Assembly: GCF_023093535.1 (NCBI RefSeq)
Contig: NZ_CP095757.1
Location: forward strand, 62,001 to 126,000
Source of the DNA: Halovivax limisalsi
Lineage (GTDB): Archaea; Halobacteriota; Halobacteria; Halobacteriales; Natrialbaceae
Reading direction: 5' to 3'
Length of the DNA stretch: 64,000 bases
The notes beneath the pieces are model-generated. The model saw only the letters and a list, made by a program, of their open reading frames with translations, had not been told where the DNA came from and ran no database searches. The first letter of the stretch is position 1; each line of letters begins with the position of its first letter. Of the stretch, positions 14,516-42,694 are shown piece by piece. A program made the position numbers and the translations under genes.

Positions 14516-15361
14516 TCACCCGATCCGCCGGCCAAACGCGAGTAGGGCCAGCACGGCCAGGACACCCGCGCTACCGGCGAATCCGGGGACGGCGTCGTCA
14601 CCGCTCGGATCGGCCACATCGGGCGACCCGCCCTCGCCGCCGTCCGACCGGTCGGCATCGTCGCCGGACGCACCCGGATCGGCCGTGCCAGCCGACGAAC
14701 CGGGGGCCGCAGCGTCCGAATTATCCGTCGCGTCGGTCCCGGAGTCCGCCGACTCGTCGGACGCATCCGGATCGCGATCGCCCGTGTCGGGCGCTCCGGC
14801 CGAGCCGCCGTCGGCGTCGATCGTGACGCCCTGCATGGAGAGCGGAACTTCCTCGATGTCGGCGTTTTCGACGATGGTGTCGCTCTCGACGAACGAGAGT
14901 TCCGTCTCGCCCGCCGCGAGGTCGAACGTGATCCGGGCGAGTTCCGGCGCGTCGACGGCCTCGTCCGGGATCGTCGACTGCGTGAACGTCACCCGGCCGT
15001 CCTCAACGTTCGCGTACGGCGACTCGAAGTCGACGCCGTCGATCGACTCGACCGTCGCCACGTCCGGATCGAACTCGAGAGCGGCGGCGTAGGCGACCGT
15101 GTTCTCGGCGGTGGTCGAGAGCGACACCGTCACCGTCTCCGGCGACTCCTCGACCACCTCGAGTTCGAGTTCGGCCGCGGATTCGTCCGTCGGCGCCGTC
15201 GACGAATGGGCCGTTGCGGGCAACTGATCGGTTGGTTCCTGGTCGGCGACGAGACCAGCCGTCGAGGCGGGCGAAGCGGTGCCGACGCCACCGACGAGGA
15301 TAGCAGTGACCAGGACGACGCACAGTAGTCGGGTCAGCGGGGTCGATTTCGAGCGTATCAT
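14516..15361 (-). CDS. Surface-anchored single-cohesin protein with PGF-CTERM-like tail
   Basis: This 281-residue secreted protein has a signal peptide (about residues 1-30), one cohesin-like module (about 62-185), a long Asp/Ser/Gly-rich stalk (about 186-255), and a C-terminal VPGF motif at 258-261 followed by a hydrophobic segment and GRRIG. The tail matches the PGF-CTERM signal that archaeosortase processes to attach proteins to membrane lipid. The cohesin contains AYAAALEFDPDVATVESI, equivalent to the AGYxAxVTFDP core of the other island cohesins, but it is the most divergent of them. ATG 15361 starts the signal peptide. Its likely job is to hold a dockerin-bearing protein at the cell surface, and it is next to the protease at 15632. 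Confidence 0.82.
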   Translation of the reverse strand: MIRSKSTPLTRLLCVVLVTAILVGGVGTASPASTAGLVADQEPTDQLPATAHSSTAPTDESAAELELEVVEESPETVTVSLSTTAENTVAYAAALEFDPDVATVESIDGVDFESPYANVEDGRVTFTQSTIPDEAVDAPELARITFDLAAGETELSFVESDTIVENADIEEVPLSMQGVTIDADGGSAGAPDTGDRDPDASDESADSGTDATDNSDAAAPGSSAGTADPGASGDDADRSDGGEGGSPDVADPSGDDAVPGFAGSAGVLAVLALLAFGRRIG

Positions 15362-15631
15362 CGATTGGTTTCGAGAGGGGTGTTTCGGGCGACCGGGCGA
15401 TATCCGGTTATCGCGCGTGTGCTTCGTCGACGATGTCGACGGACGGTGCGACGTGAGGCCCGTCGGGCGGTGTGAGCGCCCGGACGGGTGGCGGCAGACG
15501 ACGGCGGCGATGTGGTCGAGCGGTCGTGCCGCGGCCGCACGTCGTCGGCGCGACGCCACTCAGCGACGCGCCGGCGAGACCGGCACGGATCGGTGCCGGT
15601 CGGAGAGTGTGACGTTCGTGACGTGTCTGGG

Positions 15632-18600
15632 TCAGCCGGCGATGGCGTCCGGACCGTGGGTGTCGACGATGTCCTGCAGGATGAGGGTCACGTCGGCCGG
15701 CGTGACGACGCCGTCGGCGTTCACATCCGCACAGGAGTCGTGGAACGTGTCGGTCGGCTCCTGGCCCACGATGAACTGCTGGGTGAGCGTCACGTCGTAG
15801 GTGGTGACGTCACCGTCCGCGTTGACGTCGCCGGGGTCACACGGCGCGACGCCGATCGAGCCGTCATCGGTCGCGACGAACAGGTGGCCGTTCGCGTCGT
15901 TGACCGCGGTCTCTTCCTCGTCGAAGACGAGGTCGGTCTCGTCGCCGGCGTCGCCGACGTGTTCGAACTCGATCGAGGCGACGGTCGGCGCCGGAACCTC
16001 GTCGGCCTGGCCCTGCGCGAGCGAGATGGTGCCCGCGTCGTTGTCGACGTTGACGATCGGGTCGGCCATGTCGACGCCGTCGACGTCGGTGACCTGGACG
16101 ACGTCGGGGTCGAAGGAGACAGTCGCCTCGTAGCCCGCGATGGCCGTATCGACCGAGAGGTCGACGTCGACCGTCTCGCCGGGACTGGTCGTGACGTCCT
16201 CGAGCGAGATCGTCGCCTCGGGTCCGGACGATTCGACGAGGTACTGGACGCTGTTGGCCAGGATCGCGTCGGCGTCCTCGGTGTAATCACCGCTCCCGGC
16301 CCACGGCGTGTAGCCGAGCGAGGACGCGAAGATCGTCGCCGACTCCTCGTCGATCGCGAACGCGTCGCCGTGGATCCCGTCCTGGTCGCCGGACGCGGCG
16401 AGCACGTCGTACGACGTGTTCTCGAACCACGAGAGGTCGGCGAACGATCCGGTGTGGATGTCGACGGTATCGCCGGCATCGCCCACGCCGTCGAAGATCG
16501 GGTGGTCGGCCTGGAGTTCGTAGATGACCGGGGGCGTCCCCAGATCGTCCTGGAACGTGTCGGCCGGCTCGCCCGTCACGTCCGAGTGAACGGGGATGCC
16601 GTTACTGGTACTGCCCCACTGGTCGAGGTAGACGACGCCGGTTTCGATCGAGTCGGTCGCGTTGACGAGCTCCGCGCCCATCGCGGGATCGACGTTCTGG
16701 ACGACGATCGCGTCGTAGTCGTCGACGTCGGCGGTTCCCTCGAGCAGGTCGCTCGACGTGACGGTCGAGGGTGCGTACTCCATCGGCAGTTCGTCGTCGA
16801 GCGTCGCCGCGACGTCGGCACCGAAGGTTTCGGTGTCGTCGACCACGGCGACGTCGACGAGGTCTTCGAACACCATCGTCGGCCCGGTCTCGATCGAGAG
16901 CGTCTCACCGAGGCCGTCGAGGCCGTGTTCGAGGCCGAGTTCGCCGCTCGTGTCGGCGCTCGTCTCGACCATCACCTCGAGATCGCCCGTGAACGGGTCG
17001 TCGAAGGTGACCGGCTCGCCGAAGTCCGTCTCGGTACCGTCCACGTAGAGCGCGGCGTCGGCTTCGTCGTACTCGCCCGTGAGCGACACCGTGATCGACT
17101 CGAGGTTCGCGACCGACAGCGTGGTCGAGAGCGACTCGCCGCCCTCGATGCGGTCGGGCTGGTCCGCGGCGACCGCGGCGTCGAGCTGCGGCTGGAGCGC
17201 GAAGTCCGCGTCGGCGACGTGGCTGTGGTTCTCGATCGTCACCGACTGCTGGGCGGCCTCGTAGCCGAACGGGTCGACGCTGACGGTGTGATTGCCGGGC
17301 AGTTGCGTGAACGCGTACGCGCCGTTCTCGTCCGTTTCGGCGGTGAATTCGTCGTCGACGGTGACGGTCACGCCCTCGATCGGCGTGCCGTCGGCGTCGG
17401 TCACCGTACCCTCGATCCCGGCGGAGGTGTTGGCGAGCGCCGCCGCGGTGTGGACGTCGATGATGCCGTGACCGTACCGGGTGTCTTTCTCGCCGATGGC
17501 GTCCTCGGCCATCGACTCGTCCCAGTAGTCGGGCTTCCAGGCCGTTCCCGTCAGCAGATCCGTGAGTTCGTACGGGTCGATGTCCTCGCTCGCGGTCGAC
17601 AGGATCGCCGCCGCGGCGCCGCTCTTGTGCGGCGCCGACATCGACGTGCCGCTGACCTCGCAGTACTCGACGTCGCCGCACATCTCGCCGCCGTAGGCGT
17701 TCGAACTGAAGACCTCCGCGCCGGGCGCGGCGGCGTCGGGCGTGATGTACTCGGCCGGCCAATCGTCGGGGGCGGCCTCGCCCCACGCCTCGTCGGTGTC
17801 GATCAGCATCCCGCCGGAGAACGCCGTGACGTTCCCGGCCTCGTCGGTCGCGCCGCTGGCGAGCGAGTCGTAGACGGCGCCGGGCGATCCGGCCGTCCCC
17901 TCGCCGGAGTTACCGATCGAGGCGACGACGAGGGTCCCCGCCGCCATCGAGTTGCGGACGGGCTCGATGTAGTCGCCGGTGAGCGGGCCGCCGAGGCTCA
18001 TACTCAAGACGTCCGAGTCGGTCTGGACCGCCCACTCGAACGAGTCGAGGATCGCCTGGCCGTCGCACGCGCTCGTGAGACAGACGCGAGCGACGCCGAG
18101 TTCGACGTCGGGCGCGACGCCGATCGCCGTGCCGGAGGCGTTCCCGCCCGAGATCGTCCCGCTGACGTGCGTCCCGTGGCCGTGATTGTCGACCGGTTCC
18201 GTCGAGTTACCGGCCAGGTCGACCCAGCCGTCCGCTTCGGCGAGTTCGATGTCCGGGTGATCGTCGTCGACGCCGGTGTCGGCGACGGCGACGCGAACCC
18301 CGTCGCCGGTCGCGTTGAACGCGTCCCACGCTTCGGGCGCGTCGATCTGGTCGAGGCCGTACGTAACGTTCTCGACCGCTTCGGTGGCCGGCGACGCCTC
18401 GATCGGCGCCGGGGCCTCGAACTGGCGATCCGCGTGCAGGCGTTCGATCCCGTCGATCGACGCGAGCGACGAGAGATCGACCCGATCGAGATCCGCCGTG
18501 ACCATGATGGCGTTCGTGATCCACCACGTTCGCTCGACGGTGACGCCGTCCATTCCCTCGATCTCGTCGAGAACCGGCGCCTGCGTCCGACTCGCGTGCG

Positions 18601-18871
18601 ATTGCAGGGCGTCGATCACCGCCTCCCGATCGCCGTCGAGGGCGGCTTCCTCGGCGGCCGGGAGGCGAACGACGATCTCCGTCTTGCCCGATTCGCGCTG
18701 GAGCGCCGGATCGACGGTCGCCGTCGTCTCCGTCGACGCGTCGGGCGCGACCGCCGCGTCACCGATCGACGACGCGGCCGGCGTGGCCGCCACCGCGACG
18801 GGCGCGAGGACGGACGTCGCCAGGAAACAGGCGAACAAAACGGCGACGAAACGCGTGATTCGTGTCGTCAT
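15632..18871 (-). CDS. Secreted subtilisin-like (S8) protease with accessory domain, cohesin and dockerin
   Basis: This 1079-residue multidomain protein has a signal peptide (1-29), an I9-like propeptide (about 50-148) and an S8 catalytic domain (about 165-480). The triad is intact at Asp198, His232 and Ser410, with oxyanion Asn321. A carboxypeptidase-regulatory-like beta module (about 485-560) is followed by a linker and beta-rich region (560-660), an uncharacterised alpha/beta domain shared with other island proteins (about 665-880), one cohesin (about 885-1008) and a C-terminal dockerin (about 1011-1079) with calcium loops at DVNADGDVTTYD and DVNADGVVTPAD. ATG 18871 is preferred over an upstream frame that lacks a signal sequence. 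Its dockerin is the most divergent in the island, so it may dock with a different partner, perhaps the adjacent anchor at 14516. The triad is clear; the complex role is inferred. Confidence 0.9.
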   Translation of the reverse strand: MTTRITRFVAVLFACFLATSVLAPVAVAATPAASSIGDAAVAPDASTETTATVDPALQRESGKTEIVVRLPAAEEAALDGDREAVIDALQSHASRTQAPVLDEIEGMDGVTVERTWWITNAIMVTADLDRVDLSSLASIDGIERLHADRQFEAPAPIEASPATEAVENVTYGLDQIDAPEAWDAFNATGDGVRVAVADTGVDDDHPDIELAEADGWVDLAGNSTEPVDNHGHGTHVSGTISGGNASGTAIGVAPDVELGVARVCLTSACDGQAILDSFEWAVQTDSDVLSMSLGGPLTGDYIEPVRNSMAAGTLVVASIGNSGEGTAGSPGAVYDSLASGATDEAGNVTAFSGGMLIDTDEAWGEAAPDDWPAEYITPDAAAPGAEVFSSNAYGGEMCGDVEYCEVSGTSMSAPHKSGAAAAILSTASEDIDPYELTDLLTGTAWKPDYWDESMAEDAIGEKDTRYGHGIIDVHTAAALANTSAGIEGTVTDADGTPIEGVTVTVDDEFTAETDENGAYAFTQLPGNHTVSVDPFGYEAAQQSVTIENHSHVADADFALQPQLDAAVAADQPDRIEGGESLSTTLSVANLESITVSLTGEYDEADAALYVDGTETDFGEPVTFDDPFTGDLEVMVETSADTSGELGLEHGLDGLGETLSIETGPTMVFEDLVDVAVVDDTETFGADVAATLDDELPMEYAPSTVTSSDLLEGTADVDDYDAIVVQNVDPAMGAELVNATDSIETGVVYLDQWGSTSNGIPVHSDVTGEPADTFQDDLGTPPVIYELQADHPIFDGVGDAGDTVDIHTGSFADLSWFENTSYDVLAASGDQDGIHGDAFAIDEESATIFASSLGYTPWAGSGDYTEDADAILANSVQYLVESSGPEATISLEDVTTSPGETVDVDLSVDTAIAGYEATVSFDPDVVQVTDVDGVDMADPIVNVDNDAGTISLAQGQADEVPAPTVASIEFEHVGDAGDETDLVFDEEETAVNDANGHLFVATDDGSIGVAPCDPGDVNADGDVTTYDVTLTQQFIVGQEPTDTFHDSCADVNADGVVTPADVTLILQDIVDTHGPDAIAG

Positions 18872-19160: not shown

Positions 19161-22100
19161 TCAGTTGCCGATCCGGAACCGGGCGATAAGCGCCGTCGCG
19201 AAGAGGGCGATAAGCGCACTCGCCGCGGCGAACCCGGGCATGCCGTCGGTGCCGTTCGGCGAGACGGAGTCCGATTCGGCATCGCCGTCTGACGAGGCAC
19301 CGTCGTCCGCGCCGTCGTCATTCGCAGCACCGTCGGAATCGGTCGACCCGTTCTCCGCCGACTCGGCGCTCGCGGACGAACCGGCGGTTGATTCGGTGAC
19401 CGCCACGTCGCCGACGGCGGTCCCGTCGACGGAGAGAGTCACCGTACCGGCCGACTCGAACGCGTGCGAGACCTCGATCGTCGTCGTCTCGCCACCGCCG
19501 AGTGTGAGCTCCTGGACGCTGACCGGCGTGGATCCGACGTCGATCGGGAACTCGTACTGCCCCTCGACGTCGCCCGTGTTCGAGACCGTGATTCGGAGCG
19601 TGATCGATTCACCGACGGTGACCGACGTCGCGGAGAGTTCGACCGAGTCGATCTGGAACGACGCAGGATTCTCGACTTTCGGCGGCGGCAAGTAGACGCC
19701 ACCACTGCTCGACGACGCCTCGACCTGGATGGAGGTACCCATCGGTTCGAACGGAATGTCCTCCGGCGGCGACTGCCCGTCGTTCAGCGTCGTGTCCGCC
19801 CCGACGAACGACAGCTCCGTCTCACCCGTCGCGGCCACGTCGAACGTGATCTCGGCCAGTTCGGGCGAATCGATCCCGCTCGCCTGGCTCTGCGTGAAGA
19901 ATACCCAGCCGTCCTCGTTGTTGACGTTCGTCGTCGGATCGCTCATGTCCACGCCCGAGACGGACGCGACCTCCACGACAGACGGATCGAACGTCACGTT
20001 CGCACCGTAGCCCGCGACGTCATCCGCGTTCGTCTGGGCCGTCACCGTTATCTGGTCGCCTTCCTGTTCACCGGCCTCCAGCGAGAACGTGTTCTCCGGC
20101 GGCTCCTCGCCGCCGTCGTCCTCGACCGAGATCGTCGTCCCGACCGGCTCGAACGGAATATCCTCCGGCGGCGACTGTCCGTCGTTGAGCGACGTCCGCT
20201 TTTCGACGAATTCGAGGTCCGTCTCGCCCGTCGCAACAACGTCGAACGTGATTTCGGCCAGTTCGGGCGCGTCGATGCCGCTCGCCTGGCTCTGCGTGAA
20301 GAAGACCGACCCGTTCTCGTTGTCGACGTTCGTCACCGGATCGCTCATGTCGATCCCGGAGACGTCCGCGACCTCCACGACCGAGGGGTCGAACGTCACT
20401 TCCGCGCCGTAGCCCGCGACGTCGGCCGCGTTCGTCCGGGCGGTGACGCTGATCTGGTCGCCCTCTTGCTCGCCGGCCTCCAGCGAGAACGTGTTCTCCG
20501 GCGGCTCTTCGCCGCCGTCGTCCTCGACCGAGATCGTCGTTCCCTCGAGGTCGACCGGCACCTGCTCGTCCTCGTTGTTGACGAGCGTGTCTTCGGCGAC
20601 GAATTCGAGGTCCGTCTCGCCCGTCGCGACCACGTCGAACGTGATCTCCGCGAGCGTCGGCGCATCCACGCCCTCGGCCTGGCTCTGCGTGAACGAGACC
20701 TCCCCGGCCTCGTTGTCGACGTTCGTCACCGGATCGGCCATGTCGACGCCAGAGACGGACGCCACTTCGACGACCGACGGGTCGAACGTCACCGTCGCCT
20801 GGTAGCCAGCCGTGTTCGCGACCGTCGTCTCCGCCGTCACGGATATCTGGTCGCCGTCCTGTTCACCGGCCTCCAGCGAGAACGTGTTCTCCGGCGGCTC
20901 CTCGCCGCCGTCGTCCTCGACCGAGATCGTCGTCCCGACCGGCTCGAACGGGATCGGCTCCGGCGGGCTCGAACCATCGTTAAGACTCGTTTCTTCCTCG
21001 ACGAACGATAGCTCCGTCTCCCCCGTCGCGACCACGTCGAACGTGATCTCGGCCAGTTCGGGCGCGTCGATCCCGCTCGCCTGGCTCTGCGTGAAGAAGA
21101 CCGACCCGTTCTCGTTGTCGACGTTCGTCACCGGATCGCTCATGTCGACGCCCGAGACGGACGCCACTTCGACGACCGACGGATCGAACGTCACTTCCGC
21201 GCCGTACCCGGCCACGTCTGCAGCGTCCGTCCGGGCGGTGACGCTGATCTGATCGCCGTCCTGCTCACCGGCCTCCAGCGAGAACGTGTTCTCCGGCGGC
21301 TCCTCGCCGCCGTCGTCCTCGACCGAGATCGTCGTGCCGACCGGCTCGAACGGAATGTCCTCCGGCGGGCTCGAATCGTCGTTCAGCGTCGTGTCCGCCC
21401 CGACGAACGACAGATCGGTTTCGCCCGTCGCGACCACGTCGAACGTGATTTCGGCCAGTTCGGGCGCATCGACGCCACTCGCCTGGCTCTGCGTGAAGAA
21501 CACCCAGCCGTTCTCGTTGTTCACGTTCGTCACCGGGTCGCTCATGTCGATCCCGGAGACGGACGCCACTTCGACGACCGACGGATCGAACGTCACGTTC
21601 GCGCCGTAGCCCGCGACGCTCCCCGCGTTCGTCTGGGCCGTCACCGTTATCTGGTCGCCCTCCTGCTCGCCGGCCTCCAGCGAGAACGTGTTCTCCGGCG
21701 GCTCCTCGCCGCCGTCGTCCTCGACCGAGATCGTCGTGCCGACGGGTTCGAACGGAATGGGTTCCGGCGGCGACTGCCCGTCGTTGAGCGACGTCCGCTC
21801 CTCGACGAACGACAGTTCCGTCTCGCCCGTCGCGACCACGTCGAACGTGATTTCCGCCAGTTCGGGCGAATCGATGCCGCTCGCCTGGCTCTGCGTGAAG
21901 AAGACCGACCCGTTCTCGTTGTCGACGTTCGTCACCGGATCGCTCATGTCGATCCCGGAGACGTCCGCGACCTCCACGACCGAGGGGTCGAACGTCACTT
22001 CCGCGCCGTAGCCCGCGACGTCCGACGCGTTCGTCTGGGCCGTCACCGTTATCTGGTCGCCGTCCTGTTCGCCGGCCTCCAGCGAGAACGTGTTTTCGGG

Positions 22101-25100
22101 CGGCTCCTCACCACCGTCGTCCTCGACCGAGATGGTCGTCCCCTCGAGGTCGACCGGCACCTGCTCGTCCTCGTTGTTGACGAGCGTGTCTTCGGCGACG
22201 AATTCGAGGTCCGTCTCGCCCGTCGCGACCACGTCGAACGTAATCTCCGCGAGCGTCGGCGCATCCACGCCCTCGGCCTGGCTCTGCGTGAACGAGACCT
22301 CCCCGGCCTCGTTGTCGATGTTCGTCACCGGATCGGCCATGTCGACGCCAGAGACGGACGCCACTTCGACGACCGACGGATCGAACGTCACCGTCGCCTG
22401 GTAGCCAGCCGTGTTCGCGACCGTCGTCTCGACCGCGACGCCGATCTGATCGCCGTCTTGCTCACCAGCCTCGAGCGAGAGCGTGTCCGTCGGCGGCTCC
22501 TCGCCGCCGTCGTCCTCGACCGAGATCGTCGTTCCTTCCGGCTCGAACGGAATGTCCTCCGGCGGGCTCGAACCATCGTTCAGGCTCGTATCCGCCTCGA
22601 CGAATTCCAGATCAGTCTCGCCCGTCGCCACGACGTCGAACGTGATCTCCGCGAGTTCCGGTTCGTCGATCCCGCTCGCCTGGCTCTGCGTGAAGAATAC
22701 CCAGCCGTTCTCGTTGTCGATGTTGACGACCGGGTCGCTCATGTCGACGCCCGAGACGGACGCCACTTCGACGACCGACGGATCGAACGTCACGTTCGCA
22801 CCGTATCCGGCCACGTCTGCAGCGTCCGTCTGGGCCGTCACCGTTATCTGGTCGCCCTCTTGCTCGCCGGCCTCCAGCGAGAACGTGTTCTCCGGCGGCT
22901 CCTCGCCGCCGTCGTCCTCGACCGAGATCGTCGTGCCCACCGGCTCGAACGGAATGTCCTCCGGCGGGCTCGAATCGTCGTTCAGCGTCGTGTCCCCCTC
23001 GACGAACGACAGATCGGTTTCGCCCGTCGCGACAACGTCGAACGTGATTTCGGCCAGCTCGGGCGCGTCGATCCCGCTCGCCTGGCTCTGCGTGAAGAAC
23101 ACCCAGCCGTTCTCGTTGTCGATGTTGACGACCGGGTCGCTCATGTCGATCCCGGAGACGGACGCCACTTCGACGACCGACGGATCGAACGTCACGTTCG
23201 CGCCGTAGCCCGCGACGCTCCCCGCGTTCGTCTGGGCGGTGACGCTGATCTGATCGCCCTCCTGCTCGCCGGCCTCAAGCGAGAACGTGTTTTCGGGCGG
23301 CTCTTCGCCACCGTCGTCCTCGACTGAAATGGTCGTCCCCTCGAGGTCGACCGGCACCTGCTCGTCCTCGTTGTTGACGAGCGTGTCTTCGGCGACGAAT
23401 TCGAGATCGGTCTCGCCCGTCGCAACCACGTCGAACGTGATTTCGGCCAGTTCGGGCGAATCGATCCCGCTCGCCTGGCTCTGCGTGAAGAAGACCCAGC
23501 CGTCCTCGTTGTTGACGTTCGTCGTCGGATCGCTCATGTCCACGCCCGAAACGGACGCGACCTCCACGACGTCCGGGTCGAACGTCACGTTGGCCTGGTA
23601 GCCAGCGGTATTCTCGACGGTCGTCTGGGCGGTGACGCTGATCTGGTCGCCCTCTTGCTCGCCGGCCTCCAGCGAGAACGTGTTTTCGGGCGGCTCCTCA
23701 CCACCGTCGTCCTCGACCGAGATGGTCGTCCCCTCGAGGTCGACCGGCACCTGCTCGTCCTCGTTGTTGACGAGCGTGTCTTCGGCGACGAATTCGAGGT
23801 CCGTCTCGCCCGTCGCAACCACGTCGAACGTGATCTCCGCGAGCGTCGGCGCGTCCACGCCCTCGGCCTGGCTCTGCGTGAACGAGACCTCCCCGGCCTC
23901 GTTGTCGACGTTCGTCACCGGATCGGCCATGTCGACGCCCGAAACGGACGCCACTTCGACGACCGACGGGTCGAACGTCACCGTCGCCTGGTAGCCAGCC
24001 GTGTTCGCGACCGTCGTCTCCGCCGTCACGGATATCTGGTCGCCGTCCTGCTCGCCCGCAACGAGGGAGAGCGTGTCCGTCGGCGGCTCCTCGCCGCCGT
24101 CGTCCTCGACCGAGATCGTCGTGCCTTCCGGCTCGAACGGGATCGGTTCAGGCGGGCTCGAATCGTCGTTCAGGCTCGTGTCCGCCTCGACGAACGATAG
24201 CTCCGTCTCGCCCGTCTCGACCACGTCGAAGGTGATCTCCGCGAGTTCCGGTTCGTCGACGCCACTCGCCTGACTCTGGGTGAAGAAGACCCAGCCGTTC
24301 TCGTTGTCGACGTTCGTCACCGGATCGCTCATGTCGACGCCCGAGACGGACGCGACCTCCACGACAGACGGATCGAACGTCACGTTCGCGCCGTAGCCCG
24401 CGACGCTCCCCGCGTTCGTCTGGGCCGTCACCGTTATCTGGTCGCCGTCCTGTTCACCGGCCTCCAGCGAGAACGTGTTCTCCGGCGGCTCCTCGCCGCC
24501 GTCGTCCTCGACGGCGATCGTCGTGCCCTCCGGCTCGAACGGGATCGGCTCCGGCGGGCTCGAACCATCGTTAAGACTCGTTTCTTCCTCGACGAACGAC
24601 AGCTCCGTCTCGCCCGTCGAAACTACGTCGAAGGTGATCTCGGCGAGTTCGGGCGAATCGATGCCGCTCGCCTGGCTCTGCGTGAAGAAGACCGATCCGT
24701 TTGCGTTGTCCACGTTGACGACCGGATCGCTCATGTCGATTCCGGAGACGGACGCCACTTCGACGACCGACGGATCGAACGTGACTTCCGCACCGTACCC
24801 GGCCACGTCTGCAGCGTCCGTCCGGGCGGTGACGCTGATCTGGTCGCCCTCCTGCTCGCCGGCAACCAGGGAGAACGTGTTTTCGGGCGGTTCTTCACCG
24901 CCGTCGCCGAGGTCGAGCGTCGTGCCAACCAGCTGGTCGATCGGGATATCCTCCGGCGGACTCGAATCGTCGTTCAGCGTCGTGTCCGCGCCGACGAACT
25001 CGAGCTCCGTATCGACCGACTGCTGCACGGAGAACTCGATCTGGGCGAGTTCGGGCGCATCGACCCCGCTCGCCTGGCTCTGGGTGAAAAAGACCCAACC

Positions 25101-25424
25101 TTGCTCGTTGTTGATGTTCGTCACCGGATCGCTCATGTCGACGCCGGTGACCGACTCGACCTGAACGACATCCGGGTCGAACGTGACGTTCGCGCCGTAA
25201 CCAGCGACCGACGACGCGTCGGTCGAGACGCTCACCGTCGCCGATTCATCTCCAACCGATACCGATTCCAGTACAATAGAAGCTTGTTCATCTGTGGCGG
25301 TCGAGGCCGAATCGAGCGGGCCCTGCGGGCCGGCACCCATCGCTGCACCGATCGGTGCCAGCACCGACCCGAGCATGAAAACGGCCAGCGCGACCGCGAT
25401 AAGTTGACTTCTGTTCAGTATCAT
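19161..25424 (-). CDS. Giant scaffoldin with 14 cohesin modules and PGF-CTERM-like anchor
   Basis: This 2087-residue secreted protein has a signal peptide (1 to about 30) and then 14 consecutive cohesin-like modules of about 130-134 residues (about residues 48-1900). Each has the pattern AGYG/QAxVTFDPSVVEVASVSG, then FTQSQA, then ELAEITFDV. Modules are joined by short acidic EDDGGEEPPENT linkers. A PPPKVENP linker leads to a CARDB-like beta domain (about 1905-2000), a Ser/Asp/Gly-rich stalk and a PGF motif at 2063-2065 with a hydrophobic helix and a basic end. This is the architecture of a cellulosomal anchoring scaffoldin. It could present up to 14 dockerin proteins on the cell surface. It has no dockerin and no enzyme domain. 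It is flanked on both sides by dockerin proteases, so they are its likely clients; binding is inferred, not shown. Confidence 0.92.
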   Translation of the reverse strand: MILNRSQLIAVALAVFMLGSVLAPIGAAMGAGPQGPLDSASTATDEQASIVLESVSVGDESATVSVSTDASSVAGYGANVTFDPDVVQVESVTGVDMSDPVTNINNEQGWVFFTQSQASGVDAPELAQIEFSVQQSVDTELEFVGADTTLNDDSSPPEDIPIDQLVGTTLDLGDGGEEPPENTFSLVAGEQEGDQISVTARTDAADVAGYGAEVTFDPSVVEVASVSGIDMSDPVVNVDNANGSVFFTQSQASGIDSPELAEITFDVVSTGETELSFVEEETSLNDGSSPPEPIPFEPEGTTIAVEDDGGEEPPENTFSLEAGEQDGDQITVTAQTNAGSVAGYGANVTFDPSVVEVASVSGVDMSDPVTNVDNENGWVFFTQSQASGVDEPELAEITFDVVETGETELSFVEADTSLNDDSSPPEPIPFEPEGTTISVEDDGGEEPPTDTLSLVAGEQDGDQISVTAETTVANTAGYQATVTFDPSVVEVASVSGVDMADPVTNVDNEAGEVSFTQSQAEGVDAPTLAEITFDVVATGETDLEFVAEDTLVNNEDEQVPVDLEGTTISVEDDGGEEPPENTFSLEAGEQEGDQISVTAQTTVENTAGYQANVTFDPDVVEVASVSGVDMSDPTTNVNNEDGWVFFTQSQASGIDSPELAEITFDVVATGETDLEFVAEDTLVNNEDEQVPVDLEGTTISVEDDGGEEPPENTFSLEAGEQEGDQISVTAQTNAGSVAGYGANVTFDPSVVEVASVSGIDMSDPVVNIDNENGWVFFTQSQASGIDAPELAEITFDVVATGETDLSFVEGDTTLNDDSSPPEDIPFEPVGTTISVEDDGGEEPPENTFSLEAGEQEGDQITVTAQTDAADVAGYGANVTFDPSVVEVASVSGVDMSDPVVNIDNENGWVFFTQSQASGIDEPELAEITFDVVATGETDLEFVEADTSLNDGSSPPEDIPFEPEGTTISVEDDGGEEPPTDTLSLEAGEQDGDQIGVAVETTVANTAGYQATVTFDPSVVEVASVSGVDMADPVTNIDNEAGEVSFTQSQAEGVDAPTLAEITFDVVATGETDLEFVAEDTLVNNEDEQVPVDLEGTTISVEDDGGEEPPENTFSLEAGEQDGDQITVTAQTNASDVAGYGAEVTFDPSVVEVADVSGIDMSDPVTNVDNENGSVFFTQSQASGIDSPELAEITFDVVATGETELSFVEERTSLNDGQSPPEPIPFEPVGTTISVEDDGGEEPPENTFSLEAGEQEGDQITVTAQTNAGSVAGYGANVTFDPSVVEVASVSGIDMSDPVTNVNNENGWVFFTQSQASGVDAPELAEITFDVVATGETDLSFVGADTTLNDDSSPPEDIPFEPVGTTISVEDDGGEEPPENTFSLEAGEQDGDQISVTARTDAADVAGYGAEVTFDPSVVEVASVSGVDMSDPVTNVDNENGSVFFTQSQASGIDAPELAEITFDVVATGETELSFVEEETSLNDGSSPPEPIPFEPVGTTISVEDDGGEEPPENTFSLEAGEQDGDQISVTAETTVANTAGYQATVTFDPSVVEVASVSGVDMADPVTNVDNEAGEVSFTQSQAEGVDAPTLAEITFDVVATGETDLEFVAEDTLVNNEDEQVPVDLEGTTISVEDDGGEEPPENTFSLEAGEQEGDQISVTARTNAADVAGYGAEVTFDPSVVEVADVSGIDMSDPVTNVDNENGSVFFTQSQASGIDAPELAEITFDVVATGETDLEFVEKRTSLNDGQSPPEDIPFEPVGTTISVEDDGGEEPPENTFSLEAGEQEGDQITVTAQTNADDVAGYGANVTFDPSVVEVASVSGVDMSDPTTNVNNEDGWVFFTQSQASGIDSPELAEITFDVAATGETELSFVGADTTLNDGQSPPEDIPFEPMGTSIQVEASSSSGGVYLPPPKVENPASFQIDSVELSATSVTVGESITLRITVSNTGDVEGQYEFPIDVGSTPVSVQELTLGGGETTTIEVSHAFESAGTVTLSVDGTAVGDVAVTESTAGSSASAESAENGSTDSDGAANDDGADDGASSDGDAESDSVSPNGTDGMPGFAAASALIALFATALIARFRIGN
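19718..25283 (-). repeat. Tandem array of fourteen about 400-bp cohesin-coding repeats
   Basis: Within the scaffoldin gene, units of about 390-402 bp repeat 14 times with high nucleotide identity, including the linker codons. Modules 4, 8 and 12 form a distinct subtype (AGYQA core, EVSFTQSQAEG, and an NNEDEQVPVDL end). The others are mostly AGYGA/WVFFTQSQASG or AGYGA/SVFFTQSQASG. Spacing of the minority subtype every fourth unit suggests duplication of a four-module block. Module 5 is a hybrid, with the subtype-4 ends and the majority middle. Confidence 0.9.
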
Positions 25425-25844: not shown

Positions 25845-27800
25845 TCAGGACCCGACGATGGTCTGGTGGATCGCCGTCACGTCGGCCGGCGTGATATCGC
25901 CGTCTTCGTCCAGGTCCGCACAGTCCTCGTCGAAGGTGTCGGGTTCGAGGCCCGCGATGAAGCGCTGGGTCTTCGTCGCGTCGAGCGAGGACACCTGCCC
26001 GTCGCCGTCGACGTCACCCGGCAGCTCACAGCCGGGGTCGGACTCGTCCGATTGGATCTCGACCGGCACCGAGTCGCCGTGATCCGAGCTGCTGACCGTC
26101 ACCTCCCCGGAGCCGGCGTCGCCGGGCTTCGTGCTCCAGGTCAACTGGATCGACGTCGACTCGTTCGCCTCGAGCGAGACGGACGCCGAATCGGCGGTCA
26201 TCCCACCGAGATCGGCGAGCTCGACCGTCTGCTCGCCGCTCGCGTCGCCGACGTTCTCGACGGTGGCGTCGACGACCAGGTCCTCCCCCTCGGTCACGGG
26301 CGAGTTCGTCCCCGCGACCTCGACGTCGAACTCGGCCACGCCCGGCTCGGCGGCCAGCTGCACGGCCTCGTAGGCGTCGACGATTCCCATGCCGTAGCGG
26401 GAGTCCCGCCCGGTCTCGGGGTTGAAGTGGTCCGCCTCGGATGGGTCCCAGGAGTCCGGCTTCCAGGTCGACTCGAGGATGACGTCCTTGACCGCTCGCG
26501 GCCCGAGGTCCGGGTTCGCGGACAGGACCAGCGCCGCGACGCCGGTCACGTGCGGCGTCGCCATCGAGGTCCCTTGCAGGGTGCAGTACTCGCCCTCCTG
26601 ACAGCCGAGCATCCAGGCGTCCGGCGCACGCGCGCTGTAAATGGCCACGCCCGGCGCGGCCGCGTCGGGAACGATGAACTCGCCGGGCCAGTGGTCGTAG
26701 TAGTTCCCGTCGAAGTCGCCCTCGCTCACGAGGTCGCCGCTGGAGAACAGCGCGATCTCCCGTTCCTCGTTCGTCGCCCCAACCGAGATCGAGTCGTACG
26801 CCGCGGCGGGGGTGATGACCGACCCCTCGTTTTCGTTTCCGCTTCCCGCGACGACGAGCGTGCCCGCCTCCATCGTGTTGTGGACGACGTCGGCGAACGT
26901 GCCGAGCTCGGTCGTGCCGAGGCTGAAGTTGATGACGTCCGAGTCCGTCTCGACTGCCCACTCGAACGCCGCCATCACGTCGGCGTCGGCGCAACTCCCG
27001 GTGGAATCACAGACTTTCGCGTGCGCGAGGTCGGCGTCGGGCGCGACGCCGATCGCCGTTCCCGATGCGTCGCCGCCAGCGATCGTCCCGCTGACGTGCG
27101 TGCCGTGACCCATGCGGTCGACCGGCTCGCTCTCGTTGTTGAAGATGTCGTTCCAGCCGTTTTCCTCGGTGAGATCGATGTCCTGGTGGTCGGCGTGGAC
27201 GCCCGTATCGGCGACCACGACGCGGACGCCCTCGCCCGTCGCGCCGAGTTCCTCCCAGGCCTCCGTGACGTTCAGTTGATCGAGTCCGTAAGTGACGTGG
27301 TCGTCCCGGGGCTCGACAGGATTCGACACGGGTACCAGGTCGGGAACCTCGAATTCGACGGTCGGCTCGAGACGCTCGACGCCGTCGATCGCCGCCAGCG
27401 TCTCGAGGTCGACCCGATCGAGATCGGCCGTCACCCGGACGCTGTTGCGAATCCAGAAGGTGTCCTCGACGGCGACCCCGTCGAGGCGCTCGAGCTCGGC
27501 GACCACCGGCTCCTGGGTCACCGCGGCTCGGGCCTTCAACGCGTCGACCACCGCGTCCGGTCCGCCCTGCAGGTCGGTCGTCGCGACGCCCGGCAATACC
27601 AGCCAGAGTTCAGTCGGGCCCGTTTCATCGTTAAGCGATGCGTCGATCGTCGCCGTCGTCGGATCGTCCGATACCGTCTCGGTGGTCGTCGCAGACGACG
27701 GGAGCGGGCCGCTCGCCCCCGCACCGAGGGGCGCGAAAATCGCGCCGGCCATCGCGACCGCGAGCAGTACGGCGATCAGTGTCGTGCGTTGACTTCTCAT
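25845..27800 (-). CDS. Secreted subtilisin-like (S8) protease with CARDB-like domain and dockerin
   Basis: This 651-residue protein has a signal peptide (1-30), an I9-like propeptide (about 50-150) and an S8 catalytic domain (about 165-485). Asp198, His232 and Ser412 form the triad, with oxyanion Asn322. A CARDB-like adhesion module (about 487-582) precedes a C-terminal dockerin (about 590-651) with loops DVDGDGQVSSLD and DLDEDGDITPAD, each preceded by a Cys. ATG 27800 opens the signal peptide. It has no cohesin and no membrane anchor, so it is the simplest client type. A 5-bp hairpin lies 12 nt before the ATG, at the predicted transcript start. It is the first gene upstream of the scaffoldin. 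The substrate is unknown. Confidence 0.92.
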   Translation of the reverse strand: MRSQRTTLIAVLLAVAMAGAIFAPLGAGASGPLPSSATTTETVSDDPTTATIDASLNDETGPTELWLVLPGVATTDLQGGPDAVVDALKARAAVTQEPVVAELERLDGVAVEDTFWIRNSVRVTADLDRVDLETLAAIDGVERLEPTVEFEVPDLVPVSNPVEPRDDHVTYGLDQLNVTEAWEELGATGEGVRVVVADTGVHADHQDIDLTEENGWNDIFNNESEPVDRMGHGTHVSGTIAGGDASGTAIGVAPDADLAHAKVCDSTGSCADADVMAAFEWAVETDSDVINFSLGTTELGTFADVVHNTMEAGTLVVAGSGNENEGSVITPAAAYDSISVGATNEEREIALFSSGDLVSEGDFDGNYYDHWPGEFIVPDAAAPGVAIYSARAPDAWMLGCQEGEYCTLQGTSMATPHVTGVAALVLSANPDLGPRAVKDVILESTWKPDSWDPSEADHFNPETGRDSRYGMGIVDAYEAVQLAAEPGVAEFDVEVAGTNSPVTEGEDLVVDATVENVGDASGEQTVELADLGGMTADSASVSLEANESTSIQLTWSTKPGDAGSGEVTVSSSDHGDSVPVEIQSDESDPGCELPGDVDGDGQVSSLDATKTQRFIAGLEPDTFDEDCADLDEDGDITPADVTAIHQTIVGS

Positions 27801-27812
27801 GAATCGTGTCAC

Positions 27813-27827
27813 ACCTCTCGGCGAGGT
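27813..27827 (-). promoter_or_regulatory. 5'-end hairpin before protease gene at 25845
   Basis: Inverted arms ACCTC and GAGGT (5 bp) enclose a 5-nt loop, ending 12 nt upstream of the ATG. A TATA-like TTTATA sequence at about 27847-27854 is about 24 bp upstream, so the hairpin would sit at the very 5' end of the mRNA. Confidence 0.5.
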
Positions 27828-28091
27828 AATCGGCATATTTTTTCTACTATAAAATTAGTTGCTGCAATGGCTAATATTGACTATATTTTCTTAGGTACTA
27901 GTGTAATAAGTACATAAAACGGCTCGTGGGTGCGAACTGTACCGGACGATCTGGGAATCGGTCCGCCCGACGGGGTCGCTCGCGTCACGCTGGGCGGCCC
28001 GGTCGAGGAAGGTAAGAACGAAACGAAATACAACGTGGATCGCGACACCGGCTGGCGCTTACGCGGGGCGTTCCCCGCGCAAGAGCCGGCC

Positions 28092-30818
28092 TCAGCCCGT
28101 CATCCCGACGATGATCTGCTGGATCTGGGTCACGTCCGCCGGCGTGATCTCGCCGTCGCCGTTCAGATCCGCACAGGCCTCGTTGAAGGTGCCCGGATCC
28201 ATCCCGACGATGTGCTGCTGGGTCTTCGTCGCGTCGATGGAGGTCACCTGTCCGTCGCCGTCCACGTCGCCCGCGAGCGCGCAATCGGACTCGCCGACGG
28301 CGAAGGACCCATCCAGGTACTCCGCGGGTTCGACGATCTCGTCCTCGGTGTTGAGCCGGGTAAACTCGGTGTCGAAGGTGAGATCCGTCGCGTCACCCGC
28401 CGAGCCGACCGCCTCGAACGTCAGGTTCGCGAGCGTCGGTGCGTCGGTGCCCTGGGCCGCGCTGGCCGAGAGCGTCAGCGTCCCGTTCTCGGCGTTGACC
28501 GTCGGGTCCGGAAGGTCGACGCCAGCGGCCTCGACGAACGAGACGACCGACGGATCGTAGTCGATACGGGCCTGGTAGCCCGCGATGCCGTCGAGGTCCG
28601 AATCGAGCGAAACCGTCGCCGTCTGGCCCGCACTCGCCTCGGCCTCACCCAGCCGGATGAAGCCCTCCTCCGGTGGCTCGTCCGCCTCGATGGTGAGCGA
28701 GCCGTCGGCGTATTCCGTGGGCTGGACGATCGCATCCTCGGTGTTGAGCTGCGTCTCCGACTCCGCGAACGCCAGGTCCGTCGAGTCGCCAGCCGACCCG
28801 ACCGCCTCGAAGGTCAACTCGGCGAGCGTGGGCGCATCCACACCCTGCGCCTGACTCGCCGAGAGCGTCAGCGTCCCGTTCTCGTCGTTGACGGTCGGAT
28901 CGTTGATGTCGACGCCCGACGCCTCGACGAAGTCGAATGCGCTGGCGTCGTAGCTGATCTGGGCCTGGTAGCCCGCGATGTCGTCGAAGTCGGTGTCGAG
29001 GTCGACCGTCACTTCCTCACCGGCTGCGACGCTGGCCGATCCCAGCCGGATGACGCCCTCCTCCGGCGGCTCGTCGCTCTGAATCTCGACCGTCGCGGTG
29101 TCGCTCTGGTCGCCGCTGCTGACGGTCACCTCGCCGGAACCGGCGTCGCCGACGTCGGTGTTCCAGGTCAGCTCGATCGACGTCGACTCGCCGGCGTCGA
29201 GCGAGACCGACTGGCTGTCGACGACCGCACCGTCGAAGTCGGCGAGTTCGATCGTGTCGTCACCGCTCCCGTCGCCGACGTTCTCGACCGTGGCGTCGAC
29301 GACGAGGTCCTCGCCCTCGGTCACGGGCGCGTTCGTCCCGTCGATCGAGACGGCGAACTCGGCCTCGCCCGGGGGCTCGGCGACCTGACTCACGGCCTCG
29401 TAGGCGTCGACGATGCCGACGCCGTACCGGGAGTCGCGCCCGGTGTCCGGATTGTAGTGCTGGGCCTCGCCGGGGTCCCAGTCCTCGGGTTTCCAGGCCG
29501 CCTCCATCAAGACGTCCTTGACCTCGTACGGACCGAGGTCGGGATCGGCCGACATGACCAGCGCGGCGATCCCCGAGGAGTGGGGCGTCGCCATCGACGT
29601 GCCGCTGACGCGGCAGTACTCGGCGTCACCACAGTCGGCCATGCTACCGCCCGAGTGAGCGCTGTAAATGTTAACGCCGGGCGTAGTGACGTCCGGCGCG
29701 ATGTACTCCTCGTCCTCGGGCCAGTGACTCATCCACTCGCCCAGCTGGAAGTCCTCCGGCGTGATCAACTTGCCACTCGAGAATCCGGCGACACTGTGGT
29801 TCTCGTGAATGGCACCGGCGGCGACGGAGTCCCACGGTGCGGCCGGCGAGATGACGGTTCCTTCCCCGCTGTTGCCGGCGCCAGCGACGACGAGCGTTCC
29901 CGCGTCCATCGTGTTGTAGACGGGCTCGATGTAACTCCCGTACGGCGTGCCACCCAGACTGAAGTTGAGAATGTCCGAATCCGTTTCGACCGCCCACTCG
30001 AAGGACTCCATGATGGCCTGCGAGTCGCAGGATTGGCCCGGGCAGACGCGCACGGCCCCGATCTCGACGTCGGGCGCGACGCCGATGGCGGTTCCCGAGG
30101 CGTCGCCGCCCGAGATCGTCCCGGTGACGTGGGTCCCGTGGCCGAAGGTGTCGACCGGCTCCGAGGAGTCGCCGGTCGCGTCGTACCAGCCGTCCTCCTC
30201 GGCGAGTTCGATGTCGGGGTGGTCGGCGACGACGCCGGTGTCGGCGACCGCGACGCGGATGCCCTCGCCGGTCACGTCGAAGTCCTCCCACACCTCGGGC
30301 GCGTTGATCGCGTCGAGACCCCAGGTGGGCTCGCCAGTACCGGCCTCGGCCGGCGTCGCACCATCGGGTTCGGGCACCTCGAGGGTCGGCGCCGGCAGGA
30401 TGCGCTCGACGCCGTCGATCGCCGCCAGCGTCTCGAGGTCGATTTCGTCCAGATCCGCCGTCACGAGCACGCTGTTGCGGATCCAGAACGTATCCCGGAC
30501 GGACACCGCATCGTACTCATCCAGCGCGTCGAGCACCGGTCCCTGGGTCCGCTCGGCGGTCGACTTCAGCGCCGATTCCACCGCGTCCGGACCGGCCTGC
30601 CGGGTCGACGCGTCGATGTCCGGCAGGTACAGGAAGAGGTCGGTCTCTCCGGATTCGTCGAAGAGCGATTCGTCGATCTGCGCCGTCGCGTCGGCTGCGT
30701 CCGCGGGCTCGGTAGACTGCGACTCGAGCGTGGTCGGGCTCGCCGCTCCCAGCGGAGCGAAGACGGCCCCGAGCAGCACCACAGCCAGTACGACGGCAGT
30801 ACATCGGTTCGTGTTCAT
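28092..30818 (-). CDS. Secreted subtilisin-like (S8) protease with CARDB-like domain, two cohesins and dockerin
   Basis: This 908-residue protein has a signal peptide (1-27), an I9-like propeptide (about 45-145) and an S8 domain (about 160-480), with the triad Asp193, His227, Ser408 and oxyanion Asn316. A CARDB-like module (about 485-580) is followed by two cohesin-like modules (about 588-712 and 718-842) and a dockerin (about 846-908; loops DVDGDGQVTSID and DLNGDGEITPAD). Carrying both cohesins and a dockerin, it could dock to a scaffold and recruit further dockerin proteins. ATG 30818 starts the signal peptide; a frame extending to 30842 is not needed. Its promoter region has a CCATC/GATGG hairpin at the predicted transcript start. 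The N-terminal half is close to that of the protein at 33089. Confidence 0.92.
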   Translation of the reverse strand: MNTNRCTAVVLAVVLLGAVFAPLGAASPTTLESQSTEPADAADATAQIDESLFDESGETDLFLYLPDIDASTRQAGPDAVESALKSTAERTQGPVLDALDEYDAVSVRDTFWIRNSVLVTADLDEIDLETLAAIDGVERILPAPTLEVPEPDGATPAEAGTGEPTWGLDAINAPEVWEDFDVTGEGIRVAVADTGVVADHPDIELAEEDGWYDATGDSSEPVDTFGHGTHVTGTISGGDASGTAIGVAPDVEIGAVRVCPGQSCDSQAIMESFEWAVETDSDILNFSLGGTPYGSYIEPVYNTMDAGTLVVAGAGNSGEGTVISPAAPWDSVAAGAIHENHSVAGFSSGKLITPEDFQLGEWMSHWPEDEEYIAPDVTTPGVNIYSAHSGGSMADCGDAEYCRVSGTSMATPHSSGIAALVMSADPDLGPYEVKDVLMEAAWKPEDWDPGEAQHYNPDTGRDSRYGVGIVDAYEAVSQVAEPPGEAEFAVSIDGTNAPVTEGEDLVVDATVENVGDGSGDDTIELADFDGAVVDSQSVSLDAGESTSIELTWNTDVGDAGSGEVTVSSGDQSDTATVEIQSDEPPEEGVIRLGSASVAAGEEVTVDLDTDFDDIAGYQAQISYDASAFDFVEASGVDINDPTVNDENGTLTLSASQAQGVDAPTLAELTFEAVGSAGDSTDLAFAESETQLNTEDAIVQPTEYADGSLTIEADEPPEEGFIRLGEAEASAGQTATVSLDSDLDGIAGYQARIDYDPSVVSFVEAAGVDLPDPTVNAENGTLTLSASAAQGTDAPTLANLTFEAVGSAGDATDLTFDTEFTRLNTEDEIVEPAEYLDGSFAVGESDCALAGDVDGDGQVTSIDATKTQQHIVGMDPGTFNEACADLNGDGEITPADVTQIQQIIVGMTG

Positions 30819-30838
30819 TTGTAATATTTCGAAGGTAA

Positions 30839-30852
30839 CCATCTCTCGATGG
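30839..30852 (-). promoter_or_regulatory. 5'-end hairpin before protease gene at 28092
   Basis: Arms CCATC and GATGG pair around a 4-nt loop, ending 20 nt upstream of the ATG. A TAATTAA box at 30874-30880 lies about 25 bp further upstream, placing the hairpin at the predicted mRNA 5' end. Confidence 0.5.
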
Positions 30853-32953: not shown

Positions 32954-32965
32954 GTGTGCTCGTGC

Positions 32966-32980
32966 CATCGTGTCGCGATG
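32966..32980 (-). promoter_or_regulatory. 5'-end hairpin before protease gene at 31040
   Basis: Arms CATCG and CGATG pair around a 5-nt loop, ending 12 nt before ATG 32953. An AT-rich box (TTTATTTA) near 32996-33006 is about 20-25 bp upstream. Confidence 0.48.
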
Positions 32981-33088
32981 ACTCGTCCCGGAACTAAGTT
33001 TATTTAGTAAAAATAGTTTCTGAGAAAATACGAGTAGTGTCACGATCTGCCGCAACCGAAACGGGTTCACACCGGGGTTAGACGGCCC

Positions 33089-37117: not shown

Positions 37118-37128
37118 GGATGGATGGG

Positions 37129-37144
37129 CCATCTGGTCCGATGG
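37129..37144 (-). promoter_or_regulatory. 5'-end hairpin before adaptor gene at 35306
   Basis: Arms CCATC and GATGG pair around a 6-nt loop, 11 nt upstream of ATG 37117. An ATTATA box at 37168-37173 is about 26 bp upstream of the outer end. Confidence 0.5.
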
Positions 37145-41708: not shown

Positions 41709-42431
41709 TCAGAATCGGCGTCGAAGCGACGACGCGACGAACAGCGCGCAGATAGCGATCAACGTCGGGACGAGGATCAGGACGGGGATCACCGCGAAGT
41801 GGGCGTCCTCGTCGATGCGAGCACCGGTCGAGCCGTCTCCGGTCGAGCCGGCACCCCCGTCCGTACCGTCGCCGACCGAACCACCGCCGTCGGCACCGTC
41901 GCCGGCACCCCCGGCGGAGACCGTCGTTCCGACAGGATCTACCGGAATCTGTTCGGGCGGCACCTGCCCGTTGTTCACCGTCGAGGCACCGTCGACGAAC
42001 GAGAGTTGCGTCTCGCCCGGTTGCCGAACGGAGAAGGTGATCTCGGCCAGCGTCGGCTGGTCGACCCCGCGAGCCCGACTCTGGGTGAGAAACACCCAGC
42101 CCGCCTCGTTGTTGCGATTGACGATCGGATCGCTCATGTCGACGCCCGAGACCGACTCGACCGCGAGCGCAGCCGGATCGAACGTGACGTTCGCGCCGTA
42201 ACCCGCGACGTCCGTCGCGTCCGTCGAGAGTCGAACCGTGATCCGATCGCTACTTCGCTCGGCGACCGCAAGCGACAGCGTCGCGTTCGACGACTGACGC
42301 TCCATCGCCGCCTCGCCGCTCGCCGGATCGACCCGTTCGTCGACCGCGCCGGCGGGTGAGACGACCAGCAACGCACTCACCAGCACGATCGTGGCGACGA
42401 TCGCCGGTCGTGTCGCGGACGGCCTGCCCAT
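41709..42431 (-). CDS. Single-cohesin membrane-anchored protein
   Basis: This protein of about 240 residues has a signal peptide beginning MGRPSATRPAIVATIVLVSAL, one cohesin-like module (AGYGANVTFDPAALAVESVSG and VFLTQSRARG), a Gly/Ser/Asp-rich stalk and a C-terminal transmembrane helix ending SSLRRRF. Unlike the other anchors it has no PGF motif, so it is more likely held as a plain membrane protein. The start is uncertain: ATG 42467 would add 12 residues. A TATA-like TACATTAT just upstream of 42467 suggests the transcript begins close to that codon, so I prefer 42431 with moderate confidence. It is one of three anchors clustered between the two groups of proteases. Confidence 0.78.
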   Translation of the reverse strand: MGRPSATRPAIVATIVLVSALLVVSPAGAVDERVDPASGEAAMERQSSNATLSLAVAERSSDRITVRLSTDATDVAGYGANVTFDPAALAVESVSGVDMSDPIVNRNNEAGWVFLTQSRARGVDQPTLAEITFSVRQPGETQLSFVDGASTVNNGQVPPEQIPVDPVGTTVSAGGAGDGADGGGSVGDGTDGGAGSTGDGSTGARIDEDAHFAVIPVLILVPTLIAICALFVASSLRRRF

Positions 42432-42694
42432 CGTCTCGAACTCGGGTAGCCACACAGTGGTATCCATGCAGCCATACGATAATGTATCTTTCCAATCTCG
42501 ATATTGAATAGACCACTTGGTAGCTCGAAATGAACGCTCTCTGCGAGCGGTTATCGGACAGCGTCGGCGACTCGCAGGCGAAAGCGAAGATGCACGGATG
42601 GGCGACCGATCCGCCGAGGGTAGCGACGGCCTCGAGTCAGGGCGTCGAACGCCACGGTGTGTCGGCGGTCGCCAGTCGGAATCGCCCCCGATCG

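Follow-up and report, generated by a model that had tools for sequence, protein, structure and literature searches.

A fourteen-cohesin, scaffoldin-like protein encoded beside a cluster of dockerin-bearing subtilases in a halophilic archaeon

Halovivax limisalsi encodes a 2087-residue protein with 14 cohesin modules within a 36.8-kb island that also encodes eight subtilisin-family proteases with C-terminal dockerins. The arrangement suggests a cell-bound analogue of the cellulosome that digests protein rather than plant fibre, although cohesin-dockerin binding and anchoring by archaeosortase A (ArtA) are inferred and not shown. The protein was recognized in a 64,000-nucleotide window of genomic DNA (the whole stretch analyzed, to which all positions refer), and the original prediction of a 14-cohesin archaeal scaffoldin with a CARDB-like domain, an acidic stalk and a terminal PGF motif followed by a helix and basic residues was confirmed as an observation.

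The open reading frame at 19161-25424 lies on the minus strand, which the original prediction had not given, and the plus-strand reading has internal stops. The Pfam cohesin profile (PF00963) matched the protein in 14 stretches (278.4 bits against a cut-off of 24.1; whole-protein E = 1.4e-83), a scan of the genome gave 14 separate matches in this frame, and a profile rebuilt from the modules placed them at residues 48-1904, 131-134 residues apart. Modules were classed as type A or type B. The parts of the gene are as follows.

19161..25424 (-), the complete scaffoldin gene, 2087 aa, 14 cohesins
25335..25424 (-), hydrophobic, signal-peptide-like N-terminus (residues 1-30)
24882..25283 (-), cohesin 1, the divergent N-terminal module, orthologous in three species (tree support 100/100)
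24480..24881 (-), cohesin 2 (type A)
24078..24479 (-), cohesin 3 (type A), modelled by AlphaFold2
23685..24077 (-), cohesin 4 (type B)
23292..23684 (-), cohesin 5 (A/B chimera)
22890..23291 (-), cohesin 6 (type A)
22488..22889 (-), cohesin 7 (type A)
22095..22487 (-), cohesin 8 (type B)
21693..22094 (-), cohesin 9 (type A)
21291..21692 (-), cohesin 10 (type A)
20889..21290 (-), cohesin 11 (type A)
20496..20888 (-), cohesin 12 (type B)
20094..20495 (-), cohesin 13 (type A)
19710..20093 (-), cohesin 14 (type A)
19389..19670 (-), CARDB-like domain (residues about 1919-2012)
19245..19388 (-), acidic Ser/Asp/Gly-rich stalk, read from the sequence
19164..19244 (-), PGF-CTERM-like tail (GMPGF, helix, RFR)

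Structure prediction of a single module, which had been set beforehand as a test of the cohesin assignment, supported it. The AlphaFold2 model of module 3 (pLDDT 89.1) had the cohesin beta-sandwich (jelly-roll) fold, with a best Z of 16.6 to PDB 4uyp, and 49 of the 50 listed structural matches were cohesins, which rejects a chance match to low-complexity acidic sequence. The modules are 52-98% identical in protein sequence, a setting in which assemblies can fail. However, the gene lies on a single 3.895-Mb contig, the longest exact repeat inside it is 158 bp, no two modules are identical, and orthologous scaffolds with other module counts are present in sister genomes. An artefactual repeat number or module identity is therefore very unlikely, as judged from assembled sequence and the predicted fold.

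The ends of the protein were assigned with less certainty. The N-terminus was judged signal-like by eye only, and it scored 11.7 bits with the halo_sig_pep model TIGR04207, below the cut-off. The CARDB-like domain was not a Pfam CARDB hit in this protein itself, but was 34% identical (E = 2e-22) to the C-terminus of the 3-cohesin protein at 39619-41490, whose CARDB hit passes the cut-off. The tail scored 23.4 bits with the PGF-CTERM model TIGR04126, just under the cut-off of 24.5, while the neighboring 3-cohesin protein scored 25.4. The genome contains one archaeosortase A gene (TIGR04125, E = 1.2e-84). No dockerin and no carbohydrate-binding module was found by Pfam. Weak Pfam and NCBIfam hits on the scaffold (DUF4940, HNF_C, the phage tail family TIGR02217 and others) were disregarded because they lie inside the cohesin repeats and most are below cut-off.

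The island surrounding the gene contains eight subtilases with Asp-His-Ser motifs and dockerins, five of which also carry cohesins, one non-peptidase cohesin-dockerin protein, and four smaller cohesin anchors with 3, 1, 1, and 1 modules. The remaining members are as follows.

14516..15361 (-), single-cohesin anchor with a PGF-like tail, directly after the 15632 protease; hit by our own profile but not by Pfam; start position chosen
15632..18871 (-), subtilase, cohesin, and dockerin, the conserved pair partner; start position chosen
25845..27836 (-), subtilase, CARDB-like domain, and dockerin
28092..30842 (-), subtilase, CARDB, two cohesins, and dockerin
31040..33070 (-), subtilase, CARDB, and dockerin (start may be 32968)
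33089..35095 (-), subtilase, cohesin, and dockerin
35306..37132 (-), non-peptidase protein with an unassigned domain, two cohesins, and dockerin
37329..39299 (-), subtilase, CARDB, and dockerin
39619..41490 (-), second scaffoldin with three cohesins, CARDB, and PGF-CTERM
41709..42467 (-), single-cohesin protein with a C-terminal TM helix and no PGF
42695..43321 (-), single-cohesin protein with an LPGF tail
43585..44172 (-), decayed duplicate of a cohesin-dockerin tail, with no signal, no peptidase, and a broken second calcium loop
44242..47154 (-), subtilase, CarboxypepD_reg, cohesin, and dockerin
47329..50592 (-), subtilase, CarboxypepD_reg, two cohesins, and dockerin

The neighboring dockerins were assigned to type I (PF00404, Dockerin_1), with two calcium-binding loop-helix repeats, by matches over the cut-off. 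The end Asp residues of both calcium loops were kept in 21 of 22 aligned dockerins, that is, in all but the decayed copy. A dockerin profile built from the cluster matched mostly dockerin-bearing PDB chains (best E = 5.7e-9), including a bacterial "serine protease" dockerin. There were 15 dockerin matches in the genome, and four dockerin proteins outside the island are beta-propeller proteins. The dockerin partners in the island are S8 subtilases plus one protein with an unassigned domain, and not the plant-cell-wall-degrading glycoside hydrolases of a cellulosome. A cohesin-dockerin tail was also modelled (pLDDT 90.7, pTM 0.67), but the structural searches covered only its cohesin half and gave no information on intramolecular docking.

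The island occupies one site, between a helicase gene and a TYW2 gene. Two sister species have smaller versions of the island, so that scaffolds of 14, 8, and 4 cohesins occupy it in three species, and in two other sister species the site is empty and 317-318 bp wide. Module 1 is orthologous across the three scaffolds and most internal modules group by species. Within the gene, DNA identity was 89.1% between modules at lag 4 compared with 78-82% at lags 1-3 and 5-6, indicating period-4 homology. In the sister genome designated G002, the scaffold ORF has an in-frame stop before its tail, so anchoring may be dispensable there, or the stop is a sequencing error. Elsewhere in Halobacteria, a dockerin-subtilase gene was directly followed on the same strand by a single-cohesin gene with a C-terminal TM helix in 16 of 18 regions examined; four named records show the same arrangement, and the anchors in regions L047-L050 of this set carry PGF motifs. 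The 14-module protein looks like a lineage-specific amplification of such an anchor. Six of the most cohesin-rich archaeal genomes in a 393-genome sample have at most about four cohesins in one frame.

We consider it fairly likely that the 14-cohesin protein is a surface-anchored scaffoldin that gathers secreted subtilases, the protein counterpart of a cellulosome scaffoldin. In this view, the scaffold would be exported by its N-terminal signal, and ArtA would remove the PGF tail and couple the protein to a membrane lipid, with the acidic stalk and CARDB-like domain spacing the cohesin string from the S-layer. Calcium-loaded dockerins of the neighboring proteases would plug into its 14 near-equivalent cohesins, so one molecule could hold up to 14 proteases at the surface. 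The smaller anchors would hold others, and cohesins on the proteases may take further dockerin proteins and extend the complex. The modules, the predicted fold, the gene neighborhood and its evolution rest on the present analysis, whereas expression, export, anchoring, docking and extension of the complex are inferred from sequence, from which cohesin-dockerin specificity cannot be read here. A fuller version of this reading, in which the locus encodes a true protein-degrading analogue of the cellulosome, with the largest single scaffoldin described, lipid-anchored by archaeosortase and extended into networks by the protease-borne cohesins, is not excluded but remains tentative.

The original interpretation was partly supported. 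Its scaffoldin-like architecture, the absence of a dockerin or carbohydrate-binding module and a probable archaeosortase tail were upheld, and the cohesin count, which it gave as equalling or exceeding that of well-known bacterial scaffoldins, exceeds the largest published count for a bacterial scaffoldin that we found, 11 in P. cellulosolvens ScaA1 (PMC5590126). The tail described as sortase-type should be ascribed to archaeosortase A, which is unrelated to bacterial sortase. The original prediction, which proposed that the substrate is probably reached through the enzymes themselves, did not say that the dockerin-bearing neighbors are subtilases, most with cohesins of their own, nor that the protein is an amplified form of a recurrent haloarchaeal pair of protease and single-cohesin anchor.

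Because five of the eight local subtilases and the non-peptidase 35306 protein carry their own cohesins, the dockerins may prefer those. The proteases would then chain head to tail or fold back on themselves, and the 14-module protein would be a separate adhesion or S-layer protein built from the same fold. Enzyme-borne and anchor cohesins do separate in the tree, where the 40 anchor cohesins form one side of a branch (93/88). We regard this alternative as unlikely, since the pairing of a dockerin protease with a separate single-cohesin membrane anchor recurs across genera and families, and three local subtilases have a dockerin but no cohesin of their own and so need a partner elsewhere.

It is also possible, though doubtful, that the anchored subtilases serve not for feeding but for processing surface or secreted proteins, including activation of antimicrobial precursors, with the scaffold setting their local dose. 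Haloarchaeal subtilases (halolysins) activate antagonistic precursor proteins (PMC12893001), and S8 proteases on bacterial cellulosomes are proposed to act in maturation, turnover or nitrogen recycling (PMC12484212). However, eight paralogous proteases in one island is more than a single processing step needs, and no precursor gene was recognized in the island. This alternative concerns the purpose and not the assembly, and so overlaps with the favored explanation.

Scaffolded multi-enzyme degradation is known almost entirely from cellulose-degrading bacteria, and archaea were reported not to be known to have large scaffoldins (PMC9012536, citing Peer 2009). The locus would show that the cohesin-dockerin strategy was elaborated in archaea for a different polymer, protein, at high salt, and the series of one, four, eight, and fourteen cohesins, with an empty site in sister species, lets the growth of a scaffoldin be followed step by step. 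Halotolerant cohesin-dockerin pairs and clustered proteases would also be useful tools. A literature search for 14 cohesins gave nothing, and searches combining dockerin or cohesin with haloarchaea gave no protease-based scaffold system, a weak negative because most subscription papers lay outside their reach.

Bacterial primary and anchoring scaffoldins (CipA; P. cellulosolvens ScaA1/ScaB) likewise have tandem cohesins on one secreted protein, dockerin-bearing hydrolases in the same genome and cell-surface attachment. The archaeal protein differs in its inferred subtilase cargo, its lack of a carbohydrate-binding module, dockerin and SLH, its probable archaeosortase lipid anchor, and its 14 cohesins against at most 11 reported on one scaffoldin in 2017 (PMC5590126). 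Scaffoldin-like proteins of ANME archaea are also multi-cohesin but have up to five cohesins plus a dockerin, as reported in 2022, and their common dockerin partners are ABC substrate-binding proteins (PMC9012536). The Clostridium thermocellum S8 protease with a double dockerin (dDoc_0689) is a subtilase that prefers a cell-bound scaffoldin (PMC12484212), but it is one accessory protease in a cellulase complex, whereas here proteases would be the main cargo. The non-cellulosomal cohesin of Archaeoglobus fulgidus, for which no multi-cohesin scaffold or protease cluster is known, shares the archaeal cohesin fold (PDB 2xdh; Z 14.8 to the module 3 model).

The repeat-bearing ORF is encoded on the minus strand at 19161-25424. 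Pfam detected 14 cohesins in it (E = 1.4e-83), and a whole-genome scan placed 14 of the 30 cohesin matches of this genome in this one frame. The modules are 131-134 aa apart and 52-98% identical in protein, and they fall into a type A (VAGYGA) and a three-residue-shorter type B (TAGYQA; modules 4, 8, and 12), with module 5 being an A/B chimera. The array has a period of four modules, as DNA identity is 89.1% at lag 4 compared with 78-82% at lags 1-3 and 5-6, and the longest exact repeats are about 1.6 kb apart. The cohesins are followed by a CARDB-like domain, an acidic stalk and a PGF tail.

Sequence profiles alone gave only weak PDB matches, all of them to cohesin-bearing cellulosomal proteins, so a test of the predicted fold was needed. 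An AlphaFold2 model of module 3, built with an alignment of 12 sequences, had a pLDDT of 89.1. Foldseek and a second structural alignment both returned cohesins; the best match was 4uyp (Z 16.6), the archaeal cohesin of A. fulgidus was matched with a Z of 14.8, and 49 of the 50 listed rows were cohesins.

All genes assigned to the system, from 14516 to 50592, are on the minus strand. Those considered individually are listed below and are named by their lower coordinate.

19161-25424, minus strand: the ORF with 14 cohesins
14516, minus strand: single-cohesin gene, the second member of a two-gene pair
15632, minus strand: dockerin subtilase, the first member of that pair
35306-37132, minus strand: protein with two cohesins and a dockerin behind a domain without a significant match
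39619, minus strand: anchor with three cohesins, CARDB and PGF-CTERM over its cut-off
43585-44172, minus strand: decayed cohesin-dockerin copy
44242, minus strand: protease
47329, minus strand: protease

Eight of the genes encode subtilases with Asp, His and Ser motifs and a type I dockerin at the C-terminus. Five of the eight also carry one or two cohesins, while the other three carry a CARDB-like domain and no cohesin. In the 35306 protein, the domain in front of the two cohesins and the dockerin comprises about 220 aa (residues about 60-280; TVGVVGDGAYA...YLDQW...HPIV...H) and had no significant match in Pfam or the PDB. Similar stretches occur in the 15632, 44242 and 47329 proteases and are visible in the smaller-form proteases of other genera described below. 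Four more cohesin anchors were detected, namely the 39619 gene product and three proteins with single cohesins. The decayed copy at 43585 is a duplicate of a cohesin-dockerin tail with a damaged second calcium loop and neither signal nor peptidase. An alignment of the dockerins in the window revealed three classes (SID...QIQQ, SLD...AIHQ, and TYD...LILQ), which may mark different cohesin partners. Archaeosortase A is present in the genome.

The same locus was compared among this genome (G000) and four sister genomes (G001 to G004). It is flanked by a helicase gene on one side and by TYW2-NMD3 on the other. In G003 and G004 these flanks are 317-318 bp apart, and neither genome has a cohesin or dockerin match. 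In G000, G001 and G002 the gap holds about 36.8, 25.6 and 11.7 kb of this system, and the main scaffold has 14, 8 and 4 cohesins, respectively. In the tree, module 1 is shared by all three species (100/100) while most internal modules group by species, indicating that the expansions happened, or were homogenized, separately in each lineage. In G002 the frame of the 4-cohesin scaffold is closed by an in-frame stop inside the CARDB-like domain (around 8728 of region L024); the rest of the domain and a TM tail follow in the same frame.

A smaller form of the system recurs elsewhere. A scan of named genomes identified Haloarchaeobius iranensis, Haloarchaeobius sp. FL176, a Halobacteriales MAG and Halomicrococcus gelatinilyticus, each with a dockerin subtilase directly followed by a single-cohesin protein with a C-terminal TM helix. 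In a class-wide search, 58 of 391 genomes had a match to the cohesin-dockerin tail alignment at E <= 1e-15. Of 18 regions from other genomes that we examined, 16 had this two-gene order on one strand, three of them being judged the same records as the named ones. Most of these regions were chosen because two matches lay close together, and the value of 16 of 18 shows that the arrangement recurs across genera and families but not how frequent it is. In the window, the corresponding pair is 15632 and 14516.

In a tree of 65 modules, the 40 cohesins of anchors and scaffolds formed one side of a branch (93/88, short of firm support) and the enzyme-borne cohesins formed the other. This pattern fits two roles, with receptors on the cell and a second set on the enzymes.

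We favor, with reasonable confidence, the interpretation that the system is a cell-bound scaffold for subtilases that grew from a single-receptor anchor. The analysis itself established the modules, the fold, the dockerins with their calcium-loop residues, the catalytic motifs, the recurrent pairing, the empty site and the amplification. In contrast, export, lipid anchoring, binding (including any docking of dockerin proteins encoded elsewhere in the genome), stoichiometry and the digestion of protein as the purpose are inferred.

Bacterial scaffoldins had reached 11 cohesins by 2017 (PMC5590126). ANME archaea have up to five, and archaea were said to lack large scaffoldins (PMC9012536). Haloarchaeal dockerins have been noted on a mannanase and a GAG lyase and were called substrate-binding (PMC10963439, PMC13260240), and a single S8 protease with a double dockerin is known in C. 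thermocellum (PMC12484212). We found no report of a scaffold system whose main cargo is proteases, although most subscription papers were outside the literature searched. The system would work like a cellulosome but is not one, as neither the glycosidase cargo nor the CBM was found when each was looked for.

Dockerins were also detected elsewhere in the genome. Four proteins of over 2000 aa with PQQ-type beta-propeller and CARDB domains, encoded at 550-577 kb and 1.06 Mb of G000 (regions L025, L026, and L027), end in C-terminal dockerins; they are possible further cargo and could also dock. A secreted protein of about 900 aa, encoded at 14953-17664 of region L028 (about 1.91 Mb of G000), has a weak dockerin match, and a cohesin match below cut-off lies about 6.5 kb away; this protein is apparently unrelated to the island.
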